Virus record (IMG/VR): IMGVR_UViG_3300020472_000173
Span: 1-23,334 of that record
Length of the DNA: 23,334 nucleotides
Direction: 5' to 3' (one strand)
Source of the DNA: a virus
In this document: positions 3,158-17,724 of the stretch, piece after piece
How positions within the stretch are numbered: the stretch's first letter is position 1
Layout of the letters: the number at the start of each line of letters is the position of its first letter
Translations under genes and position numbers: made by a program
The notes under the pieces: model-generated
Databases searched by the model: none
What the model was told of the DNA's origin: nothing
What the model saw: the letters and a program-made list of their open reading frames with translations, nothing else

Positions 3158-3633
3158 GTATCTTTACAGACGTAAAAGACCTCGCAGGAGGAGTAACACA
3201 ATCTAAACAATGGTATAGAGAGCAACTTCAGTATGGACTAGAGTCATATGAAGGTGGTTTTACTGTAGGAGATATCATATTCTTCAATTATTCAGCTCAG
3301 ACACCAGATTTACCATTCTGGGATACCTTCCCTATGGTACTAATCACGGATGTGGACTATCAGAAGATGCAATTCTCTGGCGGGAATATGCATTATCTAC
3401 GCCCCAGCAGTAGAAGAAGCATGGGAAATAGTTGGGCTTCGGGTGGAATATCATATCCTATGCGTTGCCACCATAAATACTTTATGTCTAGTGTCACTAG
3501 AGCATATAATGTACCTCAAGAAGAGTTTCGTGAGATGACACCACTTCCAGTTGAGCAATTTGTTATAAGACCTAAAGGTCTTGGTAGGACTATGGAAGTA
3601 CCAAGCAGCATTATATGGAGTAGACTCAAATGA
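3154..3633 (+). CDS. uncharacterised T4-like structural-region protein
   Basis: I do not recognise a function for this 159-residue protein. It starts in the ATGA overlap with gp4 and ends in an ATGA overlap with gp54, so it is translated within the head and tail completion operon. Visible features are QWYREQLQYGLESY (19-32), VGDIIFFNYSAQTPDLPFWD (38-57) followed by FPMVLITDVDY, a GGNMHYLRPSSRR stretch (76-88) and a C-terminal IIWSR. The pattern of a Gly-Asp turn, beta strands and LPFWDTFPMVL followed by an MHYL motif is one I associate with a conserved unassigned protein of T4-like marine phages. There is no signal peptide or membrane segment. Position suggests head completion, neck or baseplate assembly, but that is context only. 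Confidence 0.75.
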   Translation: MSIFTDVKDLAGGVTQSKQWYREQLQYGLESYEGGFTVGDIIFFNYSAQTPDLPFWDTFPMVLITDVDYQKMQFSGGNMHYLRPSSRRSMGNSWASGGISYPMRCHHKYFMSSVTRAYNVPQEEFREMTPLPVEQFVIRPKGLGRTMEVPSSIIWSRLK

Positions 3634-4361
3634 GCACTGGGTTTGAAGATTTTAAGCAATTACTCACCACGACTGGTAAGGAGCCTGCTAGGTCCAATCT
3701 GTATGGCGTAGATATTTTTATGCCACCAGTATTAGCAGCAAACGATCCTACCTTGAGAAGGGATCAGCGTGGTGTTTATGATGCTATGAATTATCTTGCT
3801 GATACTGTAACGGTACCTGGAAGAAGAGTTACCACGTCACAATCAAAGACAAATGTTGGTGTGCAGTGGTCATATGCAACTAATCAGGCAAACTCAGACC
3901 TAAGTATAGAGTTTGTAACAACTAAAGATTTGATTCATCGCACATTCTTTGAGAAGTGGATGAATTATACTGCATCTGATGCACAGAATACTGCTACCTT
4001 CTATGATGAGTATATTACTAATGTGCAGATACTTAAGTGGGAATTAGCATCTCCTGTTAACTACAGTGGTCTTAATGCTGATAGACAAGCTTATACAACT
4101 AGACTTAATAGGACTACAGGTGTATGGCAATTCTTTGGATGTTATCCAAGTGATTTGGGAGGATTGACATTTAGTAATGCTCCAGCAGGATTAGTCAAGT
4201 TTAAGGTAGGATTCAAGTATGAGAGATACAGATTTGATACTATTGCAGATGATGTATTAAATGATAATACCCCTGATAGATATATTAACGGGTTCACTGA
4301 TGCACAAGGTGCTCTTGGCGTTAGTCCAAATCAAAAAGCAGTAGCTAGATTTGGCACCTAA
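3630..4361 (+). CDS. gp54: gp54-like baseplate tail-tube initiator
   Basis: This protein probably has the tail-tube fold and serves the role of T4 gp54, which with gp48 nucleates tube polymerisation on the baseplate. FEDFKQLL (5-12) followed by ARSNLYGVDIF (20-30) parallels T4 gp54 LEEFNNQA and RNNMFSCVF. A mid-protein VTVPGRRV, then SDLSIEFVTTKDLIHRTFFE leading to KWMNY, parallels VKMPENRL and the FRMDSEACNYRAMQDWVN region of gp54. The C-terminal QFFGCYPSDLGGL with the KFKVGFKYERYRF strand matches the gp54 FTGCIPISV and TFDVTFAYRV ending. At 243 residues it is shorter than T4 gp54 (about 320), lacking most of the segment before the VP motif. Because the tube protein gp19 shares this fold, a tube paralogue is the main alternative. 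Confidence 0.72.
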   Translation: MSTGFEDFKQLLTTTGKEPARSNLYGVDIFMPPVLAANDPTLRRDQRGVYDAMNYLADTVTVPGRRVTTSQSKTNVGVQWSYATNQANSDLSIEFVTTKDLIHRTFFEKWMNYTASDAQNTATFYDEYITNVQILKWELASPVNYSGLNADRQAYTTRLNRTTGVWQFFGCYPSDLGGLTFSNAPAGLVKFKVGFKYERYRFDTIADDVLNDNTPDRYINGFTDAQGALGVSPNQKAVARFGT

Positions 4362-4385: not shown

Positions 4386-5090
4386 ATGCCTTTACCAAAG
4401 TTAGCCATACCTGAGTATGAGATGAAGTTGCCTATTACAGGCACAAAAGTATCATACCGTCCCTTCCTCGTGAAGGAAGAGAAACTACTTTACCTTGCTA
4501 TGGAGTCGCAAGACAACAAGCAGATGGTTAAAGCAGTCAAGACCATTATTAAAAACTGTACCAATTTAAAGACTAAGGTTGAACAACTCGCTACATTCGA
4601 GATTGAATATATCTTCCTTAAGATTAGATCTGTTGCAGTTGGTGAGACAAGTGAATTTAAAGTTACATGTCCAGATGATGAAAAGACTACTGTCAACGTG
4701 ACTATTCCACTACAAGACGTGGAAATTAATATACCTGAAGGACATAGTAATGAAATTGATTTGGATGGTAATGTAGGTCTTAAGATGAAATATCCATCAT
4801 TGGATGTATTCATTCAACAAAACCTATCTGACAATCCTACTATGGATGATGTTTTTGAATTAGCTGCTGGTTGTATTGACCAAGTATATGATTCAGAAGA
4901 GGTATATGATTCATTCTCACATAAGGAAGCATTAGAGTTTCTTGAGAATCTAAATGCAGAGCAGTTTCAGAAGGTGCAAGCTTTCTTTGAAACAATGCCT
5001 AAGCTATCATATAACTTAGAAGTGACAAATCCTGAAACGAAAGTTAAGAGTGATCTGGTGCTTGAGGGTCTAGCGGCTTTTTTCGAGTAG
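4386..5090 (+). CDS. gp26: gp26 baseplate hub / tail-assembly protein, with a predicted frameshift extension
   Basis: This is the counterpart of T4 gp26, a protein of the T4 base-plate family needed for baseplate hub assembly. It is 234 residues (T4 about 208). The N-terminus (LAIPEYEMKLPITGTKVSYR, then PFLVKEEKLLYLAME) followed by a helical stretch with TIIKNCT and a FEIEYIFLKIRSVAVGE segment is typical of the family. Next come a small beta domain (residues about 97-145) and a helical C-terminus. The last codons are GCT TTT TTC GAG TAG, where T TTT TTC is a -1 slippery heptamer backed by a strong downstream hairpin. The zero-frame product ends AAFFE. A -1 shift would replace the final Glu with RVAL and continue into the 61-aa ORF at 5096, giving a fusion of about 298 residues. 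Confidence 0.85.
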   Translation: MPLPKLAIPEYEMKLPITGTKVSYRPFLVKEEKLLYLAMESQDNKQMVKAVKTIIKNCTNLKTKVEQLATFEIEYIFLKIRSVAVGETSEFKVTCPDDEKTTVNVTIPLQDVEINIPEGHSNEIDLDGNVGLKMKYPSLDVFIQQNLSDNPTMDDVFELAAGCIDQVYDSEEVYDSFSHKEALEFLENLNAEQFQKVQAFFETMPKLSYNLEVTNPETKVKSDLVLEGLAAFFE

Positions 5091-5144
5091 CGTTAATGCA
5101 TGACAGTCTTGAAAACTACTACAAGACTAACTTCGCATTAATGC
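5078..5144 (+). promoter_or_regulatory. predicted programmed -1 ribosomal frameshift signal at gp26/gp51
   Basis: The heptamer T TTT TTC (5078-5084) sits in the correct zero frame at the end of gp26. After a 5-nt spacer (5085-5089), bases 5090-5099 (gcgttaatgc) pair with 5135-5144 (gcattaatgc) over ten positions, nine Watson-Crick and one G-T. Inside, 5105-5111 (agtcttg) pairs perfectly with 5122-5128 (caagact), closing a 10-nt loop. After slippage the next codons are CGA GTA GCG TTA ATG, in frame with the 61-aa ORF. The ATG at 5096 lies inside the outer stem and has no Shine-Dalgarno sequence, so independent initiation should be poor. Confidence 0.72.
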
Positions 5145-5281
5145 AACACCACAAATACTCATTAACTGAGTTGGAAGACATGATACCGTGGGAACGAGAT
5201 GTTTACGTGAATCTCCTCATTGCTCATATACAAGAAGAGGAAAGACGGCAAGCAAAAGAAGAATCGGGGATGTCCCTATAA
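5096..5281 (+). CDS. gp51: gp51-position small protein or gp26 frameshift extension
   Basis: This 61-residue acidic, helical ORF lies between gp26 and the large tape-measure-like genes, where cyanophage annotations often place the hub assembly catalyst gp51. T4 gp51 is about 249 residues, so if it is related it is only a fragment-sized version. Visible features are YSLTELEDMIPWERDVYVNL (20-39) followed by a charged helix EEERRQAKEE. The W-E-R-D-V-Y pattern preceded by a Ser-Leu-x-Glu-Leu helix resembles the C-terminal (T) part of frameshifted tail-assembly chaperones. The reading frame is -1 relative to gp26, the ATG is buried in a hairpin and no ribosome-binding site precedes it. I infer it is made mainly as the C-terminal part of a gp26 fusion. 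It ends one base before the next ATG. Confidence 0.7.
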   Translation: MHDSLENYYKTNFALMQHHKYSLTELEDMIPWERDVYVNLLIAHIQEEERRQAKEESGMSL

Positions 5282-7930
5282 ATGGCAATCAAGAGTTTCG
5301 TTAAAATTAAACCACCCAGTGATGATGGGCCTTTTTCTGGATCTTTCAATGAGATTCGGAAGGGTATCAATCGTACTGGTGAAGTAACGGAGTCTATTGC
5401 CAATAATATGGTAGAGACTCATAAACTCATTAAGTTTGAGAAAGAGTGGTTATCAGATAGATCGGATGAGAGGGTAGAGAAGGTAGTAGAGGAAGAAGCC
5501 ACAGAGAAGAAAGGATTTAAGAAGTGGTTATCCAATTGGACAAAGATGTTCAGGAGGAAGAAGAGAGATCAAGCAGAGAAGTTGGCAGAGAAAGGTATAG
5601 AGGATGGTAACAAGGAGAATGAGGGATTAAAAGAAAAGGTAGGTAAGAAAGCGTTAGGTTTCTTTGGTAGACTAGCAAAGATGCTTGGACCATTGTTCAA
5701 CTTCTTTGTACTGTATGGTGCCTTTGATTGGTTATCTAAAAACTCAGAGAAAGCAACAAAGATCTTTAAGGTAATCTTTGGGATAGGTAAGTTTGCATTT
5801 GCCTTAGCAGGATTTGGAATAGATGCCTTATTTGGTGGTCTTGGTAATATGTTCGGTAACTTCAAGGAGGGACCGATAAAGAGAGGGTTTAGATTCTTAT
5901 TTGGATTCCTTAGTTTCGTAGGTGGGTTTGGGGTTCTTAGGTATCTACTTAACCCTTTAAAGATCTTCAGTGATGGTAAGAAGATCAAGAAGATATTTAG
6001 TGACCAGACTGGTAGAGAGGTAGAGGCAAAGAATTATGAGATGTGGAGGAAGACGGGATATAGAGATAAAGAAACGGGTAAGATCTATACAGAGCAAGAA
6101 TATAAAGCACAGAAGAAGTCAGTTGCTAAACAGCAGAAGAAGTTACAGCAACAGGGTAGGTATGAAGATGCAAGGAAACTTGGTAAGGCACATAATAAGA
6201 GGGTAGGAGCCACTCACTTACAGAAGGGTAAGAATATTGGTGGTAAGTTGATGCAACCTGGCATGCAGAAGGGTATTGCTGCTGTTGGTGGTATCACTAG
6301 GGCTTTTGCAGGTATATCACAGGGTGAGGATGCGACTCAGGCAATAGGTGCAGGTATGGGTCAGGCAGCAGGAGGAATGGTTGGTGCTGCATTATTAACA
6401 CCATTCTTAGGACCATTTGGACCTATAGTTGGTAATGCTTTAGGTGGATTTCTAGGAGAGTGGATAGGTAAGACATTCCTACCAGTAATTAAACCAATAT
6501 TTGAACCTATTAAAGATACCTTCGTGATGTTTAAGGATCTTATATTTGGTGTATTTAAAGATCTAGGTATAGGTGACTTCTTAAGTACCTTATTCAAATT
6601 CATAGGTGGATTGGGTGGTCTCTTAATGAAGGGATTGAAACCACTACTGTCCTTCATTGGGTTTATATTAGGTGGTGCTATTAAGATTATAGGAGGCATA
6701 CTTAAGTTTATTATAAGTGCTGCTAAGAATATATTCGCATTCATGATGAACCCTATAGGATTCGCATGGAAAGTTATAAGAGGTAAGGATCCTGGTAAGG
6801 ATGTAAAACTTGAGGAGGTTGAGGAGAAATCAGAAGGTGGTGTTGTTAAGAATGTAACAGTCACAAATCAGAGTTTCGTCAGCAGGTCAGAGGGTGGTCC
6901 TGTTTATCATCAGAGTTTCATACAACCAACACCACAACCCATGATATTGGGTGGAATATTTGGTGGTGGTCAGAAGACTGCTAGGAATAAAAGGAGGAAA
7001 AAGAGTCCATTCCCTAAAGGATGGAAACCAATATATGAAATAATAAATGAGACACATGTCCCAGGTAATATTAGAAGTATAGAATATAATATAACCAACA
7101 TGCCTAAAGGGTATGATGGTAGTGGTGAGAGAATTTATAGTGGTGACACTTATGTACAATTCTCTGCTATGGACATACTCCATAACAAGCATAAGAAGAA
7201 GGCAGAGCCTAAGACTGATCTAAAGACTTTAGAGGATACACCAAAAGTAAAACTAGAGCAGAGTAAGAAGGAGAAAAAAGGTCGTGGTTTTAAAGGTATA
7301 TTAGGTGGTATCGCTGATACTATGACTGGTGGTATATTTGATTTTGATGGAAGAGGTAATAATTGGATTCAGAATTTACAACAGTTACCATTCAAGATGG
7401 CAGCGATGGGTGCTAAGGGTCTTGGTCATGGGTTGTGGAATATTGCTAAGGGTCTTGGTATGGGTGTTGGTTTAATTGGTAAGGGTGTTGGTGCTGTTGG
7501 TAGGGGTATATGGAATGCACCTGGTGCTATTGCTAAAGGTATTGGAACTGCTGGCACTGCTGTTGGTAAGGGTATATGGAATGTTGGTAAGACTATTGTT
7601 AATCCTATTGGTGCATTAGCAGGAGGTATTGGTAAATTATTTGGTGGGGGTAGTAAGAAACCTAAGACCACATATGTATCAACAGCAAAGCAACCAGAAC
7701 CTAGGGAAACATGGTCAGCGATGTCTATTGATAAGATGAGAGACTTATCTGAGAAGAGGACAGAGCACCTAGCACAATTCCAATATAAAGCACAGAGGGA
7801 TAAGGATGCTGAGAAGTTTATGCCTACTCCTAGGACAATGATAAGAACAATCAGACAACCTGTAATAAATAACAGTGGTAACAACCCAGTGCCTATATAC
7901 GCACCAACTTCACCAATGTTTACTTGTTAA
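5282..7930 (+). CDS. large tape-measure-like tail protein, copy 1
   Basis: This 882-residue protein has no clear T4 sequence match, but position (after gp26/gp51, before gp27) and composition suggest a tape-measure or hub protein with the role of T4 gp29. The N-terminal ~125 residues are charged and probably coiled-coil. A hydrophobic helical block (about 125-225) includes YGAFDWLSKNSEKATKIFKV. A Lys/Gln-rich stretch follows (about 240-315), then a long Gly-rich hydrophobic region (about 335-505), a segment starting EGGVVKN, and a glycine-zipper tract near nt 7400-7650 with repeated GKGIWN-type units. The paired DWLSKN block, the Gly-rich membrane-like block and the FDFDGRGN motif recur in the next gene, so the two are paralogues. 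The start is the ATG one base after the previous stop. Membrane-like helices are known in tape measures, which can insert in the host membrane. Confidence 0.8.
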   Translation: MAIKSFVKIKPPSDDGPFSGSFNEIRKGINRTGEVTESIANNMVETHKLIKFEKEWLSDRSDERVEKVVEEEATEKKGFKKWLSNWTKMFRRKKRDQAEKLAEKGIEDGNKENEGLKEKVGKKALGFFGRLAKMLGPLFNFFVLYGAFDWLSKNSEKATKIFKVIFGIGKFAFALAGFGIDALFGGLGNMFGNFKEGPIKRGFRFLFGFLSFVGGFGVLRYLLNPLKIFSDGKKIKKIFSDQTGREVEAKNYEMWRKTGYRDKETGKIYTEQEYKAQKKSVAKQQKKLQQQGRYEDARKLGKAHNKRVGATHLQKGKNIGGKLMQPGMQKGIAAVGGITRAFAGISQGEDATQAIGAGMGQAAGGMVGAALLTPFLGPFGPIVGNALGGFLGEWIGKTFLPVIKPIFEPIKDTFVMFKDLIFGVFKDLGIGDFLSTLFKFIGGLGGLLMKGLKPLLSFIGFILGGAIKIIGGILKFIISAAKNIFAFMMNPIGFAWKVIRGKDPGKDVKLEEVEEKSEGGVVKNVTVTNQSFVSRSEGGPVYHQSFIQPTPQPMILGGIFGGGQKTARNKRRKKSPFPKGWKPIYEIINETHVPGNIRSIEYNITNMPKGYDGSGERIYSGDTYVQFSAMDILHNKHKKKAEPKTDLKTLEDTPKVKLEQSKKEKKGRGFKGILGGIADTMTGGIFDFDGRGNNWIQNLQQLPFKMAAMGAKGLGHGLWNIAKGLGMGVGLIGKGVGAVGRGIWNAPGAIAKGIGTAGTAVGKGIWNVGKTIVNPIGALAGGIGKLFGGGSKKPKTTYVSTAKQPEPRETWSAMSIDKMRDLSEKRTEHLAQFQYKAQRDKDAEKFMPTPRTMIRTIRQPVINNSGNNPVPIYAPTSPMFTC
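7864..7871 (+). promoter_or_regulatory. possible late promoter inside the first tape-measure-like gene
   Basis: AATAAATA fits the NATAAATA late consensus and lies 63 nt before the start of the next large gene. It is inside coding sequence in an A+T-rich region, so a chance match is possible. Confidence 0.4.
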
Positions 7931-7933
7931 TAG

Positions 7934-10813
7934 ATGGCACCGACAGTAAAAGTATCTAAGCCCTCAATGTATAAGATGATCTCTTATAAGGGTGTTTCTG
8001 GTGCTCAGTCAAATTATACTCCTATCACTGCTGCTAATAGATTAGGTAAGGTTGAGAAAAGTTTTGGTGCTGGTATGACTACCACCATTGCTGGTATCAA
8101 TTCACTTGGACAGACTCTTAATAGTATTGCTAGGAACACTGAGTTTACATTAGAAAGTTGGAAGTCAAATATAAGATCACAGATAAAGGATAATAAGTTA
8201 TTAACAAAGAAAGAGAAGATAGCAGATAAAGCTAAAGTTACTAGAACAAAGAAGAAGGATAAGGAAGAGAAGGATAGAAGAAAGAAAACTGAGAGAGATG
8301 ATGCAGAGAATAAGACTGAGAAGGATCCATTACTCAGGAGGATAGGAGAGACATTTGCGGAGAAGACCAAGGCAGTGGGTAAGGGTCTCTTTGGTACTAT
8401 ACTAAGTCTATTTGGTAATCTTATAGGTACCTTTATAACCTATAAGATATTTGATTGGATATCTAATAATCCTAAGAAAGTTACTGCCTTCTTTAAGGTT
8501 ATAGAGGGGATTGGTAAGTTTATATTTAATGTCGCAGGGTTCTTTTCGGGCATGTGGCTGGACGGACTCGCTAACTTCTTTGAGAATCCCATAAGTCTTA
8601 AAGGTTTCTTTGGTATATTCCAGTTCCTGCTGGGTGCTACACCTCTATTTGCAGCATTTGCATTCCTCAAGAATCCCAAGAAAGGGGTTGAGATGCTTGG
8701 TAGCATCATCAGTAAACTAGGTAATGGACTGAAGAGTCTCTTTGGATTCGGTAGTAAGGAAGATAAGTTAAAACAATTTAAACTTAAGAAAGCCACTGGA
8801 CATAGGTTCGGGAAGGTTGGTAAGTTTATGGATGGTAAGCTAGGTAAGGGATTACTTGCTGGTGGTGCTGCTGTTAGTACATTTGGTATTGTTAAAGCTG
8901 CTGGTGGTAGTACTTCTGAAGCTGGTGGTGCTGCTGTAGGTGCTGCTGGTGGTCAAATGGCAGGAGCAGCATTAGGTGCTGCAACTGGAATTCCTGGTGC
9001 TGGAGCACTGGGTGGTATGATTGGTAGTATGGCAGGTGGCACTGTAGGTAAGGCAGTTGGTGGATTGATAGAACCAATTACTAAACCTATAGGTGAATTC
9101 TTCAAGATGATTGGTGACACCTTTGGTAGTGTGATTAATGAGATTAAGAAACCAATGGAGGAATTCTTCACTGTATTAGGTGAAGTAATGGGTGGTATAA
9201 TTGATGCTATCAAACCTCACATGCCTATTATCACTAAGATAATTAGCACAGGTATTAAGGTACTATTCTGGCCCTTATTCTTAGGTATGAAAGCATTAAC
9301 TGCGGTGCTTAAGTTATTTGTTGGTGGTGGAGATAAGAAGGAAGATAAGGGATCCTCAGGATTAAAAGGTGGTCAAGATACTGGTCTGGGTAAGTCACAA
9401 CCTAAGACAAAAACTATAACGAAAGTTACTAGGGAAACTAAGATAGGTGGAGAGCCTTATACTCCTGGACAAACTCTTACAGAGAGGCAGAGAGCTGCTG
9501 TCTGGATGAAGTTGTCGATGGGAAATAAACCCCCATTGCCACCACATGTAGTAAAAGATTACTGGGATTCTGGTGGTCCTCTAAAAGCAAAAGAATCACA
9601 AAAGACTGATAATAAAGGTAAACCTGAGGTAGTAGAGAGTAAGGATAGTAAGAATGAATTTGATTTTGCTAAGGGTGGTTTATTTAAGTCTGGAGGATGG
9701 ATAAGTGGACCTCAATCAGGTTATCCTGTATCATTAGATGGTGGTAGAAGTACTGCATTTATAGGTCATGGTACTGAGTGGGTTGGATCTAAGATGGCAT
9801 CAGGTGGTGCATTTGTAGTACCATTTGATACTCCTGCTACTAGACAGAGACCTGGATTAACTAAGACACGCCTAGGAGAAGCAAAGAGACAAGGTTATGC
9901 ATTACCACAGGCATATGACCAGAGACTACAACCATACATGTGGGGTGGTGGATGGAAGAAAAAAGATAAGGGTAAGAAGACTTGGGAAGAATATAAGAGC
10001 TCACGTAAATATCAGAACAGACAAGCAAAGATTAATGAATTAAGAGCTCAGGACACAAGTAATAGCCGCACTATCTCAAGTGCTAGTAATCTTAATACTA
10101 GATGGGATATGAACACAGGGAAGGCATATATTAATGGAAAAGAAGTACCACTACAGGAATATGCTGATTTCAAACAGAAATCCAGTTCTGAGCAGTTGGA
10201 TAGTCGTGGTATACAAACCAAGTTTGATGTATCAGGTGACATGCCACCTGAAAGACTTGCTGCACCTAAACCTACCATTAAGGAGAGATTCTTAGGTGGT
10301 CTTGGACGTGGTTTTAATGCATTACCACAGGTCAGGGCAGCAAAATGGTTAGGTGGTAAGGCAGTACAAGGATTTAATGCATTACCAGGGGTTAGAGCAG
10401 CGAAATGGTTAGGTGGTAAACTTGGTGCAAAGGATGAAGAGGGTAAACCAGCAGGTATGGCAAGATGGTTAGCAGGTGCTTTAGATACAGCAACTGGTAA
10501 TGCATTTGATTTTGATAAGCGTGGTAATCTACTTGATGGTGCTAAGAACATCAAGGATCGTTTGATGGGAGATAGACTGGAGGAAGCACAGCAGAGAGAG
10601 AATACAGAGAAATTTAAGCAATTACAGGAGGCATTAGATGGTCCTCAGGTAGTTGCTATGGAAGAACAGGCAGCTCCTATTATAGGATCAAATACTGGTG
10701 AAGATGTACCTTTTGTTATACCTAGTGACCATGAGTTAGATGCTGACAAATTCATAAAACCTAAGTATGGATTGTTGCCTGAGTTTATGACAGATCCTGT
10801 GGAGTTTATGTAA
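7934..10813 (+). CDS. large tape-measure-like tail protein, copy 2
   Basis: This 959-residue paralogue of the preceding gene has the same order. It has a Lys/Glu-rich coiled-coil-like N-terminus (about 70-135) and a hydrophobic block with FDWISNNPKKVTAFFKV and GIGKFIFNVAGF (about 170-205). A very Gly/Ala-rich membrane-like region (about 300-385) and a helical amphipathic stretch around EPITKPIGEFFKMIGDTFG follow. Residues about 575-640 carry AKGGLFKSGGWISGPQSGYP, then GHGTEWVG and GGAFVVPFDTPATR, a Gly-rich motif series common in the C-terminal half of phage tape-measure proteins. Near the C-terminus there is a 20-residue tandem repeat and a FDFDKRGN motif shared with copy 1. If fully helical it would span roughly 140 nm, in the range of long myovirus tails (inference). 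The stop is directly followed by the gp27 ATG (TAAATG). Confidence 0.82.
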   Translation: MAPTVKVSKPSMYKMISYKGVSGAQSNYTPITAANRLGKVEKSFGAGMTTTIAGINSLGQTLNSIARNTEFTLESWKSNIRSQIKDNKLLTKKEKIADKAKVTRTKKKDKEEKDRRKKTERDDAENKTEKDPLLRRIGETFAEKTKAVGKGLFGTILSLFGNLIGTFITYKIFDWISNNPKKVTAFFKVIEGIGKFIFNVAGFFSGMWLDGLANFFENPISLKGFFGIFQFLLGATPLFAAFAFLKNPKKGVEMLGSIISKLGNGLKSLFGFGSKEDKLKQFKLKKATGHRFGKVGKFMDGKLGKGLLAGGAAVSTFGIVKAAGGSTSEAGGAAVGAAGGQMAGAALGAATGIPGAGALGGMIGSMAGGTVGKAVGGLIEPITKPIGEFFKMIGDTFGSVINEIKKPMEEFFTVLGEVMGGIIDAIKPHMPIITKIISTGIKVLFWPLFLGMKALTAVLKLFVGGGDKKEDKGSSGLKGGQDTGLGKSQPKTKTITKVTRETKIGGEPYTPGQTLTERQRAAVWMKLSMGNKPPLPPHVVKDYWDSGGPLKAKESQKTDNKGKPEVVESKDSKNEFDFAKGGLFKSGGWISGPQSGYPVSLDGGRSTAFIGHGTEWVGSKMASGGAFVVPFDTPATRQRPGLTKTRLGEAKRQGYALPQAYDQRLQPYMWGGGWKKKDKGKKTWEEYKSSRKYQNRQAKINELRAQDTSNSRTISSASNLNTRWDMNTGKAYINGKEVPLQEYADFKQKSSSEQLDSRGIQTKFDVSGDMPPERLAAPKPTIKERFLGGLGRGFNALPQVRAAKWLGGKAVQGFNALPGVRAAKWLGGKLGAKDEEGKPAGMARWLAGALDTATGNAFDFDKRGNLLDGAKNIKDRLMGDRLEEAQQRENTEKFKQLQEALDGPQVVAMEEQAAPIIGSNTGEDVPFVIPSDHELDADKFIKPKYGLLPEFMTDPVEFM
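10313..10432 (+). repeat. two tandem 60-bp in-frame repeats
   Basis: Two adjacent 60-bp units (10313-10372 and 10373-10432) encode FNALPQVRAAKWLGGKAVQG and FNALPGVRAAKWLGGKLGAK. They share the first 16 residues except one (Q/G) but differ at several synonymous positions. This indicates an older duplication kept by selection rather than a fresh one. Confidence 0.85.
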
Positions 10814-16750: not shown

Positions 16751-17017
16751 ATGAAAGGACGTATCACACGTAGTTATTGCTATCTCGATGGTAATGTAGT
16801 TGACATGTGGTACATTCAAGGCATACCTTTTACGTTTGAGGAGTTACCTCAACCAATGCAAGAGGTAGAAGATGTTGAGCAAGAAGCAGCAGATGCAACT
16901 GGATATTCGATGGAAGACATGATGAAATGGTCTAACTATCTAATAGCAGAGCAATGCCACCCACTACTGTTTACAGTAGAAGAATTTATTGAAAATTATG
17001 AGGAAGTTCCTGAATGA
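16751..17017 (+). CDS. small acidic protein upstream of talC
   Basis: This 88-residue protein is not recognised. It begins MKGRITRSYCYLDGNVVDMW, has a charged middle rich in Glu (QEVEDVEQEAADA), then TGYSMEDMMKWSNYLIAEQC and a C-terminal FTVEEFIENYEEVPE. It has Cys at positions 10 and 69, no signal and no clear membrane segment. It starts 1 nt after the previous stop and its own stop overlaps the talC ATG (ATGA), so it is co-translated with talC and may modulate or simply accompany it. Confidence 0.72.
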   Translation: MKGRITRSYCYLDGNVVDMWYIQGIPFTFEELPQPMQEVEDVEQEAADATGYSMEDMMKWSNYLIAEQCHPLLFTVEEFIENYEEVPE

Positions 17018-17724
17018 AGATCTTTTTAGATACTGCTGATGTCCCAACTATTCTCGAACGTTTCGAGACTGGTTTAATTGATGGTGTTACTACCAATCCA
17101 TCTCTTATTCGTAAGAGTGGTAGAGACCCAGAGGATGTCTATCGTGAATTAGCTATGGCAGGTATACCTGACATTAGCATGGAAGTTGTTGAGGATATGA
17201 TAGGTGAGGGTCAAAGACTCTCTGGTGAGTTTCCTCACGTAAGTACAATTAAGGTGCCATGCACACCAGAAGGACTAAAAGCATGTAAAATACTATCAGA
17301 CAATGGAGTTAGAGTAAATGTTACGCTTATATTCAATGCTGCTCAGGCTATCTTATCTGCAAAGGCAGGTGCTACGTACGTCAGTCCTTTTATTGGGCGG
17401 TTGGACGATAATAGCGTTGCTGGGTTGGAGGTTATCCGATCAATAAGTGAAGTGTTTAGAGTGCAGAAGGTTGAGAAGACAAAGATTCTTGCTGCATCTA
17501 TTCGTGACGTATATAAAGTATCAAGGGCATTCTGGAATGGTGCTGATATAGTTACCATGCCACCTAAGATCTTTGATGGAATGTATAAGCACATTCTTAC
17601 CGATAAAGGACTAGAGATATTTGATAAGGATTATCAAGCAACTGTATCTAGGGTAAACAAATCCGCATATCAACCACCTAGTACAATACGTGCCAGAGTT
17701 GGGGGTGATCTGGATGCTTTCTGA
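17014..17724 (+). CDS. talC: transaldolase TalC
   Basis: TalC moves a three-carbon dihydroxyacetone unit from fructose-6-phosphate to erythrose-4-phosphate in the pentose phosphate pathway. The 236-residue length and the motifs are those of the small TalC/FSA subfamily: FLDTADVPTI (4-13), DGVTTNPSLIRKSG (23-36), HVSTIKVPCTPEG (75-87) with the predicted Schiff-base lysine K80, VNVTLIFNAAQA (101-112), GATYVSPFIGRLDD (119-132) and NGADIVTMPPKIF (175-187). The catalytic Asp (D6) and the SPFIGR phosphate-binding region are intact, so the enzyme should be active. Marine cyanophages commonly carry talC, often with cp12; together they are thought to favour NADPH and ribose production over carbon fixation. 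It overlaps the preceding gene by 4 nt and the next by 11 nt. The C-terminal ~15 residues are a phage-specific tail. Confidence 0.96.
   Translation: MKIFLDTADVPTILERFETGLIDGVTTNPSLIRKSGRDPEDVYRELAMAGIPDISMEVVEDMIGEGQRLSGEFPHVSTIKVPCTPEGLKACKILSDNGVRVNVTLIFNAAQAILSAKAGATYVSPFIGRLDDNSVAGLEVIRSISEVFRVQKVEKTKILAASIRDVYKVSRAFWNGADIVTMPPKIFDGMYKHILTDKGLEIFDKDYQATVSRVNKSAYQPPSTIRARVGGDLDAF

Follow-up and report, generated by a model that had tools for sequence, protein, structure and literature searches.

In phage lambda, the slip site of the G/GT genes is GGGAAAG. Among the T4-like phages, Vladimirov, Gautam and Davidson are said to have found a frameshift conserved in several groups, with T4 itself reportedly using genes 26 and 51. 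Their paper (Vladimirov, Gautam and Davidson, Virology 2022, 566:9-15) is already credited with reporting the frameshifted tail assembly chaperone (TAC) arrangement in T4-like phages, so the novelty that an earlier note on the DNA analysed here had hinted at for a gp26/gp51 frameshift is not borne out. Two further papers cite the same work. The PRFect paper does so for some T4-like phages in which no frameshift is used and the long form has a gene of its own, a fusion gene beside the short one (PMC10274946), and the phage Adele paper for poly-T slippery sites in the TAC-N genes of T4-like phages (PMC12846349). T4 gp26 and gp51 are listed as hub assembly chaperones, and gp51 is absent from the virion (PMC3004832). 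In the literature on cyanophage frameshifting, slippery sites and the baseplate hub, no paper was found on the junction between gp26 and the small ORF described below.

The window is the whole stretch of DNA that was analysed, a virus fragment of 23,334 bases in IMG/VR (IMGVR_UViG_3300020472_000173). It holds a tail operon of T4-like type, whose TAC locus sits between the tail tube gene (upstream) and genes matching tape-measure and endolysin families (downstream). The features are as follows.

3630-4361, plus strand: tail tube gene (phrog_45, E 5.2e-36), the upstream neighbour expected for a TAC pair
4386-5090, plus strand: gp26-like gene of 234 aa, a probable short tail assembly chaperone (TAC-N) from PF12322 (E 1.4e-69), phrog_150 (E 1.9e-76) and a fold match
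5066-5281, plus strand: open -1 frame (stop-free at 5066-5278) with a TAC-C domain (phrog_634, E 4.8e-29; phrog_150 columns 239-276)
5078-5084, plus strand: slippery heptamer T TTT TTC with the zero-frame codons TTT TTC, in phase and kept in two samples of junctions
5085-5089, plus strand: 5-nt spacer, overlapping the gp26 stop codon TAG at 5088-5090
5090-5144, plus strand: stem, a probable stimulator, with outer arms at 5090-5099 and 5135-5144 and inner arms at 5105-5111 and 5122-5128
5282-7930, plus strand: large gene, partly tape-measure-like (phrog_90 endolysin, E 8e-28; phrog_973 and phrog_167 tape measure, E 1.5e-5 and 2.4e-4)

The gp26-like protein belongs to PF12322 with 234.6 bits against a cut-off of 24.5, and the nearest cultured relative by gp26 is the cyanophage P-TIM40 (65%). 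Inside the open -1 frame lies a small ORF of 61 codons (ATG at 5096, stop codon at 5279-5281). In relatives, its product bears the annotation gp51 (baseplate hub assembly catalyst), and the databases list two genes; in the profile search, phrog_150 covers both the gp26 part and the small-ORF part. The gene at 5282-7930 is the neighbour and client expected for a TAC pair. With the tube gene before it and the tape-measure-like genes after it, the TAC locus is placed as G/GT is in lambda, and the earlier note was right to liken the two. It was also seen that the genes at 5282-7930 and 7934-10813 adjoin and that both match the phrog_1200 endolysin family as well as tape-measure profiles; possibly, they are a duplicated tape-measure-like gene. 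By eye, an ORF at 17014-17724 resembles a TalC-type transaldolase, which cyanophages commonly carry as an auxiliary metabolic gene. The locus is very probably the TAC locus of an uncultured cyanomyovirus-like, T4-like marine phage.

The 3′ end of the gp26 gene reads GCT TTT TTC GAG TAG (5076-5090), which puts the heptamer in the X XXY YYZ phase. On the plus strand of the window, TTTTTTC occurs a single time, exactly here. A -1 slip product would consist of gp26 residues 1-233 followed by 65 residues, 298 aa in all. The elements that the earlier note had listed, namely a heptamer in the right frame, a 5-nt spacer and a downstream ORF in exactly the -1 frame, are all present in the window, and the predicted fusion has the length of about 298 residues that it gave. 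Going by the sequence, I consider it highly probable (about 0.94) that the locus encodes a T4-like TAC-N/TAC-NC pair, in which gp26 and a 298-aa fusion with a gp51-like C-terminal domain are made by a -1 slip. Most ribosomes would terminate at the TAG at 5088-5090 and release the 234-residue TAC-N, that is, gp26. A minority would pause on TTT TTC (5079-5084) with the help of the stem at 5090-5144, slip back by one base to TTT TTT and continue to 5278, giving the 298-residue TAC-NC. On the model of lambda gpG/gpGT, TAC-N and TAC-NC alike would be expected to coat the tape measure protein, and recruitment of the tube protein would fall to the C-terminal domain. For the window phage, I infer from these elements that slippage occurs, at whatever rate, and that the products act as chaperones.

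Is the arrangement conserved among relatives? I compared two samples of junctions. The first comprised IMG/VR loci retrieved with gp26 or the small protein; 157 sequences had both parts and, after the removal of duplicates, gave 117 distinct heptamer-bearing relative junctions, in which gp26 identity falls as low as about 32%. The second comprised loci picked with the gp26 alignment alone, giving 78 distinct junctions. As in the window, the -1 frame holds the small ORF at each of the 157 loci. The heptamer is TTTTTTC in 111 of the 117 junctions, TTTTTTT in four and TTTTTTA in two, always in the correct phase, and it starts 10 nt before the gp26 stop codon in 110, 31 nt in six and 7 nt in one. 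In the second sample, TTTTTTC is found at -10 in 78/78. In all 49 non-redundant relatives, the codon preceding Phe-Phe ends in T (GCT, AGT, TCT, GAT or AAT) and the first Phe codon is TTT; from background codon usage, log10 P is -13.4 for the T-ending codon and -9.2 for TTT, on an assumption of independence that is not fully true. The same site occurs in the cultured phages S-PM2, P-TIM40, HTVC008M, phiM7, ACP17, V07, D484, X1, PhiW-14, pf16, Ps15, avDM12 and others. The sole first-sample locus without the heptamer, L142, has GTGTTTTC; in L141, a near relative, the sequence there is AGTTTTTTC. The difference is due either to an error of sequencing or to a slip site mutated in nature. In one lineage (L120, L121, L129, L136, L141 and L147), the gp26 stop codon lies 21 nt further downstream, with the heptamer 31 nt before it; thus, the two frames overlap more.

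The stem described in the earlier note, 10 outer pairs including one G-U (G-T in the DNA) and 7 perfect inner pairs, was recovered both by a repeat search for the arms and by folding. In the window, its minimum free energy is -20.9 kcal/mol (z -5.8), and none of 200 shuffles was equally stable; the junctions of near relatives also fold far better than shuffles. Against a synonymous-codon null, the junctions have a mean z of -1.98, compared with -0.54 for control windows in gp26 (p 1.7e-8), so folding exceeds what coding constraint explains. The exact pairs, however, are lineage-specific. In relatives below 55% identity, 44% of the outer pairs are paired against 52% under the null, which rules out a universal stem. 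Downstream of the heptamer, L148 and L133 carry an unrelated hairpin (GGCTCTCNCACGAGAGCC) where the window has its stem, which illustrates turnover of the presumed stimulator. Since the exact pairs are lost below about 55% identity, the stem is not a required element, while the excess structure together with the turnover of pairs indicates that some downstream structure appears to be selected and that its form changes. It is plausible from the predicted folds that the stem is a lineage-specific stimulator rather than a defining element.

An AlphaFold model of gp26 (pLDDT 85.9) was compared with the PDB by VIA-align. Residues ~1-95 of the model match 3fgx (Z 7.9), 2ob9, which is the tail assembly chaperone of HK97 (Z 7.6), and 3klu (YqbN, Z 7.0); YqbN belongs to the same chaperone class. 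The next matches are the Vibrio PICI-like ORF19 5ir0 (Z 5.2) and then one with Z 2.7. A PDB sequence search with the gp26 profile gave no match at E up to 1. The model thus suggests a TAC-like fold for the N-terminal domain of gp26, which is supportive but not decisive because the top Z values are just below 8.

How are these proteins related to those of T4? Both T4 gp26 and T4 gp51 are PF12322 proteins, and residues 147-246 of T4 gp51 match phrog_634, to which the small ORF also belongs. The profile of the fused product aligns with T4 gp51 over positions 23-280, across the junction, but with T4 gp26 over positions 10-237 only. Thus, T4 carries the long and the short form as two genes. These genes (26/51, L167:7803-9229) are divergent on opposite strands, and their products are paralogues with 20% identity (E 1.7e-6, pairwise BLASTP). 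The earlier note had spoken of a gp51-position ORF; the -1-frame ORF is real, but its counterpart in T4 is the C-terminal domain of gp51 rather than the complete protein. The reading as a short and a long TAC is based on the gp26 fold, the alignment of T4 gp51 across the junction and the short paralogue T4 gp26.

It might instead be supposed that the small ORF stands alone as a gene, that its translation starts at the ATG at 5096 by translational coupling after the gp26 stop codon, and that the T run is incidental. The window ATG does lie 5 nt past the stop codon, an ATG directly after the gp26 stop is kept in 73 of the 117 distinct junctions, and two genes are what the databases hold. However, 24 of the 117 have no ATG, GTG or TTG ahead of the conserved core, and a Shine-Dalgarno sequence, sought in the other 93, was found in 0/93, which rules out a small ORF with its own ribosome-binding site. 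The window ATG lacks a Shine-Dalgarno sequence too and is buried in the stable outer stem, as the earlier note had said; a small ORF in another frame with a good ribosome-binding site, which that note had named as a refuting case, was seen in none of the loci. Moreover, the -1 frame is kept upstream of the ATG. Within 60 nt past the slip, stop codons occur in the -1 frame of none of the 117 junctions, in the zero frame of 117 and in the +1 frame of 115. In the -1 frame, the first four codons past the slip mostly encode R-[VI]-A-L. Codons 3 and 4 fall between the zero-frame stop and the ATG and vary most at the third position of the -1 frame. The annotated start of the small gene in P-TIM40 and HTVC008M lies further downstream, so that conserved residues are left out. 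With the heptamer phase invariant and T4 gp51 a single fused chain, a separate gene is improbable. Since 73 of the 117 relatives keep the ATG, some amount of a separate small protein may still come from re-initiation there.

A fusion made by transcriptional rather than ribosomal slippage is even less probable. Homopolymers can yield fused products, and the T run reaches eight in HTVC008M and seven in phiM7, but 111 of the 117 junctions have only six T, a folded stem follows, and slippage of the polymerase does not need a codon phase, yet the phase of T TTT TTC is fixed. Chance or a sequencing artefact is practically out of the question: by itself, TTTTTTC is no rarity (6 copies in the window, where 3.8 are expected), but the same arrangement recurs in independent contigs and cultured genomes, and a chance origin is excluded because the 117 distinct junctions and the 78/78 of the gp26-only sample are in phase. 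The programmed -1 frameshift proposed in the earlier note is therefore strongly supported by the invariant frame and heptamer and by the conservation of the -1 frame before any start codon. The frequent lack of a start codon, the colinearity of T4 gp51 with the fusion and the TAC-like fold of gp26 support it as well, and the alignment of junctions across relatives, a check which that note had suggested, found the heptamer missing from L142 alone in the first sample and from no junction of the second.

A different site was found in the Ackermannviridae phages PM10, Sa157lw, Kamild, 3M and KpS110, and in Cygsa01 and K445. TAC-C is again in the -1 frame in these phages, while [ACG]TTTTCA replaces T TTT TTC at all seven gp26 3′ ends (L166:3790-3810, L172, L173, L174, L175, L164 and L171). 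The small ORF is unannotated in four of the five Ackermannviridae records, and a viral-contig search with the K445 protein found no relatives. The codon overlapping the gp26 stop is ATT, ATC or ATG; initiation at this codon is disfavoured because Met alternates with Ile codons. The P-site codon at [ACG]TTTTCA cannot re-pair after a -1 slip, which makes a single-tRNA slip on TTC possible. Tentatively, and with more doubt than confidence, the sequences might be read as a non-canonical single-tRNA -1 slip on TTC in Ackermannviridae and a few relatives, unlike the tandem slip on T TTT TTC. This TTTTCA site may be the part that is less known than the principle of frameshifting in T4-like phages.

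These results correct a common annotation. What is annotated as gp51 in cyanophages and other T4-like phages probably does not exist as a free protein and instead forms the C-terminal portion of a frameshift product; gp26 and gp51 would thus be tail assembly chaperones, not hub parts. The conserved junctions also provide a set of sites for slippage tests in cyanobacterial hosts, and the conservation data help to trace how a two-gene solution arose in the T4 group in place of a frameshift.

Like lambda gpG/gpGT (Xu, Hendrix and Duda 2004), the window locus has a minor long isoform, which is predicted here. It differs from lambda in having T TTT TTC and a downstream stem, with no sequence similarity shown. 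The TAC locus of phage Adele (Vandenendeviridae/Andersonviridae; PMC12846349) resembles that of the window in its -1 frameshift, poly-T site and TAC-N/TAC-NC products, but its motif is GTTTTT and the phage families are different. T4 has a separate short gene (26) and a long gene (51), where the window phage would use a -1 frameshift. The closest likeness is to the T4-like TACs of Vladimirov et al. (2022), which reportedly share with the window the gp26/gp51 family, the short and long forms and, in several T4-like groups, the frameshift.
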